Assembly (NCBI GenBank): GCA_016937175.1
Contig: JAFGWL010000048.1
Location: forward strand, 1 to 5,812
Length of the DNA stretch: 5,812 bases
Source of the DNA: Candidatus Mcinerneyibacteriota bacterium
Lineage (GTDB): Bacteria; Macinerneyibacteriota; Macinerneyibacteria; Macinerneyibacteriales; DSCS01
Direction of reading: 5' to 3'
The notes beneath the pieces are model-generated. The model saw only the letters and a program-made list of their open reading frames with translations. It did no database searches and had not been told where the DNA came from. This document shows positions 4,150 to 5,812 of the stretch, piece by piece; within the stretch, counting starts at the first letter, position 1; every line of letters starts with the position of its first letter. A program made the position numbers and the translations under genes.

Positions 4150-5439
4150 ATGGGAAGAAACAGATCCGTGGGTTACAGTAATCTATTGCTTTCACTTTCA
4201 GATGCCATCGATCTGGCAAACAGTGAAATCGCAAAACATCAGCAGCGGACAGCTTATATCGCCTGGGAAACAGCCAAAGCCGCCCACCTGAACGAAGAGC
4301 TTATTAAAGACCTTTTTATTGCTGCTTTGTTCCATGATGTGGGAGCTCTTACTGTTGAAGAAAAAACCGCGCTTCAAAATTTTGAGACAGCTGACCTGGA
4401 AAAACACTGCATACGTGGAGACATCCTTTTACGGAGGATCCCCCAACATGAACGTATTGCATCTATCGTACGCTATCACCATACTGAATGGAAGAATTGG
4501 GATGAACCCATCGACAAGGATTATGTCACAGCCTCCCAGATTCTCTGTCTGGCTGACTTCCTGGAACGCCTGATTGACAGGGATGTCTATATTCTTCACC
4601 AGAGAGACGTTTTAACCCGTAAAATCAAAGAACTATCCGTGGAGCATGTCTATCCCGACATCATCGATACTTTTCTTTCCATTTCCGATAAGGAAGAGTT
4701 TTGGTTGGATCTGACTTCACCAAGACTCTATTCCATTCTCAATAAACAGGGGCCTTTGGGTAATCTCATCGTAGATTACGATGCTATTGAGATCCTTTCA
4801 AAATTCAGCCGTGATTTTATTGATTATAAATCCCCCTTTACAGCCACTCACTCATCCGGCGTTTCCGCCTGTGCTGAGATTTTATCCCGTCTTATGGGAC
4901 TTTCAGATCAGGATATCCAGGAGATGCGGATCGCCGCGAACTTTCATGACATAGGAAAAACAGCGATACCCAACAGTATCCTTGAAAAACCCGGAAAACT
5001 CACTAACAATGAACAGGCTTTGGTGGCAGGGCATGCTTACTATTCCCACTACATCATCAGCACCATCGGAGGCCTGGGACATATAGCCGAGCGGGCGGCT
5101 TTTCATCATGAAAAACTCGACGGATCAGGATATCCTTTCCACTGTTATGAGATGAATATGTCTACAGGAGCGCGGATTATGGCCGTGGCCGATATCTATA
5201 CAGCTTTGGCCGAAGACCGCCCCTACAGAGCGGGAATGCCCCGGGACAAGATGATCGGGATCATGCGCCTCATGGCAGCCTCCAACGCCATTGACAAAAA
5301 TATCGTAGGGCTTCTCGCTGACAATTTCAATGCCGTAAATGAGCATGTAAGCCAATCCCAGCTGGATGCCCGGGATTTTTATGAAAATCACTTGAAACCC
5401 TATTACGGGAACACAGCCCCTCCACCACCAAGAAACTAA
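4150..5439 (+). CDS. Tandem HD-domain protein with C-terminal HD-GYP (predicted c-di-GMP phosphodiesterase)
   Basis: A complete 429-residue soluble protein with no signal, membrane segment or receiver domain. The C-terminal half is a full HD-GYP domain: H234, H266-D267 with K270 (FHDIGK), H295, H319-H320 with E321, GYP motif KLDGSGYP (322-329), and D348 (VADIYTALAEDRPYR). HD-GYP proteins hydrolyse c-di-GMP to pGpG or GMP, and some act on cGAMP. The N-terminal half repeats the fold: H30, H62-D63, H86, H110-H111 and D136 line up with the metal ligands, but HDVGAL lacks the lysine and NWDEP replaces the GYP loop, so it may be regulatory or have another substrate. The two are joined by a linker, about 150-225, with no recognised domain. 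Start: AAGGGGG (4136-4142), seven bases before the ATG. No adjacent cyclase gene is visible; the small RNA precedes it and a repeat array follows. Confidence 0.93.
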   Translation: MGRNRSVGYSNLLLSLSDAIDLANSEIAKHQQRTAYIAWETAKAAHLNEELIKDLFIAALFHDVGALTVEEKTALQNFETADLEKHCIRGDILLRRIPQHERIASIVRYHHTEWKNWDEPIDKDYVTASQILCLADFLERLIDRDVYILHQRDVLTRKIKELSVEHVYPDIIDTFLSISDKEEFWLDLTSPRLYSILNKQGPLGNLIVDYDAIEILSKFSRDFIDYKSPFTATHSSGVSACAEILSRLMGLSDQDIQEMRIAANFHDIGKTAIPNSILEKPGKLTNNEQALVAGHAYYSHYIISTIGGLGHIAERAAFHHEKLDGSGYPFHCYEMNMSTGARIMAVADIYTALAEDRPYRAGMPRDKMIGIMRLMAASNAIDKNIVGLLADNFNAVNEHVSQSQLDARDFYENHLKPYYGNTAPPPPRN

Positions 5440-5466: not shown

Positions 5467-5533
5467 CTCCACGATATGTTTGAAGCTGTTTTGTTCATGT
5501 GGTGAAAGTGTTTAGTACAAACTTTTCGCGGAG
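5467..5533. repeat. Imperfect inverted repeat, array copy 0 (diverged, 67 bp)
   Basis: The ends CTCCACGA (5467-5474) and TCGCGGAG (5526-5533) are inverted copies with one mismatch. Inner arms GTTTG (5478-5482) and CAAAC (5518-5522) also pair. Size and terminal CTCC...GGAG match the two copies to its right, but the interior is largely different. It lies 28 bases after the HD-GYP stop and could help end that transcript. Confidence 0.55.
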
Positions 5534-5558
5534 GGATCTAGGGCTTAATAACGATGTG

Positions 5559-5624
5559 CTCCGCAAAAAGACTCGCTGTTAAGCTAAATTCCTGATCAGC
5601 TCATGAACTTTTCTTTTTTTGGAG
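5559..5624. repeat. 66-bp inverted-repeat element, array copy 1
   Basis: It begins CTCCGCAAAAAGACTCGCTG (5559-5578), identical over 20 bases to copy 2, and ends CTTTTTTTGGAG (5613-5624), the inverted form of its first 12 bases with two mismatches. An inner GCTG (5575-5578) / CAGC (5597-5600) pair occupies the same position as in copy 2. By eye, copies 1 and 2 align without gaps at about 50 of 66 positions. Confidence 0.8.
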
Positions 5625-5634
5625 ATTAAAAAAA

Positions 5635-5668
5635 AAGCCTTCTCCGTACTCACATACAAAGAAGGCTT
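5635..5668 (-). terminator. Intrinsic terminator for a minus-strand transcript from the right
   Basis: Read on the minus strand, AAGCCTTCTTTGTA (5668-5655) pairs over all 14 positions (two G-U) with TACGGAGAAGGCTT (5648-5635) around a six-base loop. The run continues as Ts through 5628 (nine As on the plus strand, 5628-5636). On the plus strand the two G-U pairs become C-A mismatches and no U-tract follows, so the minus direction is favoured. It implies a minus-strand transcription unit arriving from beyond 5812 or starting inside the array. Confidence 0.75.
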
Positions 5669-5687
5669 AATACTGTCTAGCGCTGGT

Positions 5688-5753
5688 CTCCGCAAAAAGA
5701 CTCGCTGAGAAGCAAGAACCTTTATCAGCCAATTTTTTTGTCTTTTTGTGGAG
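5688..5753. repeat. 66-bp inverted-repeat element, array copy 2
   Basis: Terminal arms CTCCGCAAAAAGAC (5688-5701) and GTCTTTTTGTGGAG (5740-5753) are inverted copies at 13 of 14 positions. The one exception is a G-U pair in plus-strand RNA. Inside, GCTGA (5704-5708) pairs with TCAGC (5725-5729). The result is a long hairpin with an internal loop. Same length as copy 1. Confidence 0.8.
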
Positions 5754-5800
5754 ATTTAAAAGAAAGCAACTTGATTGCTTCTCCTTATAGATCTCGGGGT
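5754..5800. other. Spacer with hairpin between repeat copies 2 and 3
   Basis: AAGCAA (5764-5769) and TTGCTT (5775-5780) form a six-pair hairpin. On the minus strand it is followed by TCTTTTAAAT, a weak terminator-like arrangement placed like the strong one in the previous spacer. The right end holds GGGGTCCCC, a perfect short palindrome running into copy 3. Confidence 0.5.
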
Positions 5801-5812
5801 CCCCGCAAAAAG
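5801..5812. repeat. Start of a further repeat copy, cut by window edge
   Basis: CCCCGCAAAAAG matches the first 12 bases of copies 1 and 2 at 11 of 12 positions, indicating that the array continues beyond the window. Copy starts are 129 and 113 bases apart. Confidence 0.6.

Follow-up and report, generated by a model that had tools for sequence, protein, structure and literature searches.

Tandem hairpins and terminators at a contig end in Candidatus Mcinerneyibacteriota: a probable rRNA operon trailer

A series of inverted repeats of nearly equal size lies at the end of an assembled contig, and the question raised by this locus is what such an array represents. The window, that is, the whole stretch of DNA analysed, is the entire contig C67 (5812 nt), and the array sits at its physical end, beyond a gene named HD-GYP in a preliminary description. 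The genome (G000) is a 1.88 Mb MAG of 71 contigs, 98.7% complete, in the order of Candidatus Mcinerneyibacterium. Two relatives were available for comparison: a sister species of the same genus (G001) and Candidatus Mcinerneyibacterium aminivorans (G002), from the same order. The sister MAG, G001 (DSCS01000056.1), is filed as "Bacillota bacterium SpSt-1200", yet is placed here in the Candidatus Mcinerneyibacterium order.

The array is probably the 3' trailer of an rRNA operon whose transcription, on the minus strand, would enter at the contig edge and proceed toward the HD-GYP gene; a second operon's trailer would lie beside aroC. It is best read as a layout already known from Escherichia coli, carried by unrelated sequences, and not as a mobile or recombination element of a new class.

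The array and its elements

The array contains three hairpin elements, here given on the minus strand and all bounded by CTCC...GGAG: E0 (5467-5533, 67 nt), E1 (5559-5624, 66 nt) and E2 (5688-5753, 66 nt). A fourth, E3, is represented by 12-15 nt of its 3' arm (5798/5801-5812, minus strand; direct repeat family D2) and is cut by the contig edge, although this arm could instead belong to the RNA gene upstream, as its 3' end. The geometry is as the preliminary description had it, including the start of a fourth element and spacers of 25, 63 and 47 nt. Copies 1 and 2 are identical over the initial 20 bases and 76% identical over an ungapped 90-nt stretch, and copy 0 retains the ends and the size and not the interior.

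The hairpins stand up to resampling. To qualify, a hairpin had to be bounded by CTCC...GGAG, span 60-72 nt and form 9 or more of its 14 outer pairs; the array held three of these, a number reached in none of 20,000 order-1 Markov resamples, 1.1% of which held at least one. On the minus strand, the fold z-scores are -4.6 for E0, -3.9 for E1 (5558-5624) and -3.4 for E2 (5687-5752). There is no ORF of at least 80 aa wholly inside the array in the ORF list of the window. A CRISPR was considered and dropped, as the spacers are unequal and the repeats diverge.

A covariance model, R1, was built from six elements: E0, E1, E2, two further ones (Ea and Eb) and one from the sister species. E0, E1 and E2 score 57.5, 74.1 and 79.2 bits against it, as members of the model by construction. 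A search with R1 found five elements at two loci in this genome and one in the sister species, and nothing convincing beyond these six in G000, G001 and G002 or in the other 287 of the 290 genomes; a match on contig C11 of the sister species (E 0.11) falls in apparent coding sequence and was rejected. All six confident elements, from two genomes, lie at most 350 nt from a contig edge, while such ends make up about 2.6% of G000. The exact 20-mer was absent from 84,980 species genomes, and a DNA search of 60 genomes gave, outside G000, nothing but short chance-level matches. Viral contigs gave four matches to a loose pattern, no more than chance expects, and none to the two-arm pattern, and phage records gave 27-nt chance matches only. 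No Rfam family, RtT included, matched at its gathering score, and the best sub-threshold match to the array was PyrR, at 29.3 bits versus a required 54.

Terminators and reading direction

A feature overlooked in the preliminary description is T2 (5628-5668, minus strand), an intrinsic terminator, called by a terminator scan, with a 15-bp hairpin leading into an uninterrupted T-run (-20.2 kcal/mol, z -6.0), which recurs in the second array of this genome, on contig C63, and has a similar counterpart in the sister species. T1 (5758-5780, minus strand) is a weak terminator-like hairpin (AAGCAATCAAGTTGCTTTCTTTT) that both arrays form when folded and that the scan did not call. The spacer between E1 and E0 (5534-5558, minus strand) holds TTATTAAGCCC, which resembles the start of a terminator; judging by these letters, the spacer is probably a terminator remnant, and it would be short because its terminator seems to have been lost.

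On the minus strand, the order is E3 - T1 - E2 - T2 - E1 - remnant - E0, with E2 between the weak T1 and the strong T2, and E1 after T2. The scan found no terminator on the plus strand of the array. Since terminators occur only on the minus strand, transcription is expected to emerge from the contig edge. The polarity is the same wherever the array is found: one strong terminator was called per array in C67, C63 and the sister species, each pointing outward from the shared side, while any further terminators are weak or cut off.

The sister-species copy, on contig C54, starts at the edge with a T-run. Next come a CTCC...GGAG hairpin of 68 nt (z -5.8), a linker with GGGGACCCCC and a 16-bp terminator. 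Each of these components reads away from the contig edge, and the element lies between the cut-off T-run and the strong terminator. The linker between E2 and T2 (5669-5687, minus strand) is conserved there: over the 3' end of E2, the linker and the start of T2, 30 of 40 nt are identical, whereas the best of 268 unrelated strands reached 23. The same C54 element is also the closest relative of E0, 25 nt of which are 92% identical to it.

Most units share a 3' motif, CTTTTTGCGGRG, that ends those of E1, E2 and Eb as well as the contig edge, with a variant in Ea and in the sister-species linker. ACCA comes after the motif in E2 and Eb and recalls a tRNA 3' end, although this is a lead only. The motif leads to a prediction, namely that the last RNA gene of the operon, beyond the contig edge, would end in the repeated motif CTTTTTGCGGRGACC.

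A second copy and the contig ends

The preliminary description had called for a genome search for the element. The first 20 bases occur on only one other contig of this genome, C63, where a second array was indeed found at the contig end, 252 nt deep, after aroC. The last 56 nt of the window (5757-5812) are identical in C67 and C63 to the same last base and constitute the entry into a shared two-copy unit. Moving outward from it in 30-nt bins, identity between the two contigs is 100, 97, 97, 97, 97, 83 and 83%, and then 53-63%. E2 differs from its C63 partner at two positions in the alignment, whereas the interiors of E1 and Ea have strongly diverged.

The nature of the shared unit was approached through the contig ends, on the logic that contigs entering one repeat from different places have a common terminal sequence. 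The terminal 500 nt at both ends of all 71 contigs were compared (142 ends; the ends of C17 and C21 read N). Only three kinds of same-orientation two-copy junctions were present: tuf, the 5' end of 16S rRNA, and the array (C63/C67). The tuf junctions, C12/C68 and C12/C13, are accounted for on both sides, tuf having been identified by reading the sequence; two tuf-like genes break the assembly too, with 87-nt shared ends at C12, C13 and C68. A 16S start is found at the ends of C9 and C49 (Rfam RF00177), and two 16S 5' ends mean two rRNA operons, which require two 3' ends at other contig ends. The best candidate for these is the array, because C63/C67 is the sole unpartnered pair and has the right polarity. 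By elimination, we infer that the shared unit is an rRNA operon, although contig ends with no shared sequence could, in principle, hold the 3' ends of the operons instead.

The sister species also has two 16S starts, with flanks resembling those in G000. In one of the two operons of G000, tRNA-Lys(UUU) and tRNA-Glu(UUC) lie just upstream of 16S (G000:C9:12457-12612; L175:157-312), and the same tRNA-Lys/tRNA-Glu/16S arrangement is seen in the sister species (G001:C2; L230:1245-1400). The window itself contains no tRNA. Genes for 5S and 23S rRNA were not found in G000, G001 or G002, and no contig in them has either gene adjoining the array; absence of 5S and 23S is common in MAGs.

Besides the missing 5S and 23S neighbors, further observations count against an operon trailer. 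At the array pair, the identical stretch is 56 nt and 2 mismatches occur within 87 nt; the other junctions are shared over 87 nt, and the array break is therefore not a plain k-mer junction. Contig C54 of the sister species has no partner contig. Finally, the HD-GYP gene is on the other side of the array in that species.

A model for the probable trailer

In E. coli, rRNA transcription is normally modified for antitermination, and strong serial terminators are found at the ends of rrn operons. By analogy, a long primary transcript would run here from the rRNA genes into the tandem units, in each of which an intrinsic terminator comes after a 66-nt hairpin. The serial terminators would stop RNA polymerase, which usually carries antitermination modifications when transcribing rRNA operons and is then difficult to halt, and the hairpins between the terminators would be transcribed through read-through. 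The hairpins would probably be processing or protection structures, or they may be released as small RNAs like RrA, RrB and RrF of E. coli; in this analysis, a role in processing or protection and one as sRNAs are equally likely, and any separate function of the hairpins is speculative.

If the same layout, with unrelated sequence, ends rRNA operons in a candidate phylum far from E. coli, tandem units of hairpin and terminator may have a tendency to evolve repeatedly in such trailers. There is also a practical lesson, in that MAG repeats cut at a contig edge can be the flanks of rRNA operons lost in binning.

E. coli offers precedents for repeats after a stable RNA gene. The RtT RNA is formed by the tandem repeats of tyrT, which follow a stable-RNA gene. 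The likeness lies in the tandem repetition; the difference is that the array has no match among the Rfam families even at E values up to 5. The tRNA-linked repeats (TLRs) offer the closer parallel: rrA, rrB and rrF are flanked by the two terminators of rrnA, rrnB and rrnD, and the last 18-19 bp of a TLR repeat the 3' end of the RNA gene that precedes it (PMC8144298). Like the TLRs, the present elements are short structured repeats that alternate with terminators, with one or several per locus, nearly identical across more than one operon, and here they would follow a stable-RNA operon. The array has a repeated 3' motif, with CTTTTTGCGGRG closing most units. Unlike the TLRs, its sequence is unrelated (no Rfam match), its units are up to 129 nt long, its terminators have 15-bp hairpins, and it belongs to a different phylum. 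The E. coli rrnB terminators are another likeness, T1 stopping 87% and T2 100% of transcription (as cited in PMC8144298), since serial terminators stand there at the end of an rRNA operon, as they probably do here. In contrast to rrnB T1/T2, the array interleaves and multiplies 66-nt hairpins that are not terminators.

Possible roles of the hairpins

Could the hairpins be regulatory sRNAs, expressed in proportion to rRNA synthesis as RrB is? This would refine, and is compatible with, the trailer, and in its favor are a position between terminators and a conserved structure, as have been described for RrA/B/F (PMC8144298); no Rfam family covers the hairpins. RrA/B/F bind Hfq and CsrA in vitro with modest phenotypes only, and E. 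coli was reported as the first prokaryote with sRNAs inside rRNA transcripts (PMC8144298). On the other hand, the interiors have little in common, those of E1 and Ea included, and the terminal GGA is in a paired arm, not in a loop. The greater conservation of the arms favors a structural role over a base-pairing one. An sRNA function is a tentative possibility. It is similarly doubtful, though conceivable, that the hairpins are a genus-restricted family of RNAs linked to rRNA operons, with an origin separate from that of the enterobacterial RrA/B/F, which would be produced when polymerase reads through the tandem rrn terminators and would couple regulation or processing to growth rate in a candidate phylum.

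The variation among the elements bears on whether they act as RNA at all. The preliminary description had asked whether the arms vary in a compensatory way, and the covariance model gives a partial answer: in 3 of 15 stem pairs (7-62, 13-56 and 14-55), both sides change, across two species, with pairing kept, but six sequences limit what this can say. Only 1 of 500 shuffles reached the covariation score, but as many two-sided pairs were seen in 225 of the 500. An alternative alignment with E0 and the sister-species element reversed scores higher over the arms, though not consistently over the interiors, and these two may therefore be inverted relative to the others. Of the three identities that the preliminary description had proposed, "tandem structured RNA" remains the best fit, and is partly supported, by these two-sided changes and by the alternation with minus-strand terminators.

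It is unlikely, but worth weighing, that the palindromes act instead as DNA, as sites for a dimeric protein (e.g., a replication-fork barrier or a nucleoid protein) beside the rRNA operons. The two-sided changes and retained symmetry would fit this, too. The fifth stem pair is never Watson-Crick in any of the six elements (G.T, A.C or A.A), while its neighbors are mostly paired, as if the half-sites differed by rule. Furthermore, E0 and the sister-species element carry the G-first arm on the transcribed strand, and E1, E2 and Eb carry it on the opposite one, such that the wobble pairs favor no single RNA strand. However, the arm letters are AAAAGTTTG in E0 and the sister species versus AAAAAGAC in the others, where a protein site would tend to keep them, and the elements alternate with terminators of a single polarity.

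Mobile and recombination elements

It is improbable, too, that a mobile or duplicated unit present in two copies (an IS, a transposon, a prophage or a gene duplication) ends here with subterminal repeats. An element with multiple binding sites would likewise show two copies, contigs broken at one common base and inverted motifs in series. Yet the identity between the copies decays gradually, as in gene-converted operons, where a transposed copy would end abruptly. The array also lacks a sizeable ORF, no transposase was recognized by inspection among the ORFs of C67 and C63, and a related element and linker have been retained in the sister species. Serial outward terminators are unexpected at IS ends, and a mobile unit would leave the two 16S starts without partner contig ends.

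The "recombination site array" of the preliminary description is not supported, and an integron attC array or other set of recombination sites has next to no chance of being correct: the tandem imperfect palindromes of around 66 nt are attC-like, but, of the paired core sites required in the test (RYYYAAC and GTTRRRY), only a 7-nt core match in E1 was found, at the same site on either strand, with the pair in no element, while the 25-63 nt spacers carry no genes or cassettes and inspection of the ORFs in the window and in C63 revealed no integrase. A "palindromic intergenic element family" in the REP or MITE sense is not borne out either, as the model matches only the two G000 arrays and one sister-species element. 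REP, BIME and MITE families, with many scattered copies, were rejected on the same distribution (five elements at two loci in G000, one in G001, none in G002 and the 287 other genomes).

Neighboring genes

The HD-GYP gene (4150-5439, plus strand) is an ORF convergent with the array. The preliminary description had placed the array downstream of this gene, which is right as a position, but the association does not hold, the gene being a mere neighbor and not part of the array, the other copy of which is beside aroC. HD-GYP orthologues are present in G001 and G002, with a tandem pair in G001. In all three Mcinerneyibacteriota genomes, HD-GYP genes lie about 0.4, 0.3 and 1.0 kb from a contig edge (window:4150-5439; L067:3442-6150; L068:1041-2279), and the gene may therefore be a conserved neighbor of a repeat, presumably an rRNA operon.

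Two other ORFs of the window, both on the minus strand, were identified by reading: one for an ankyrin-repeat-like lipoprotein (2294-2839) and one for a secreted protein resembling a C1-family peptidase (3-1061).
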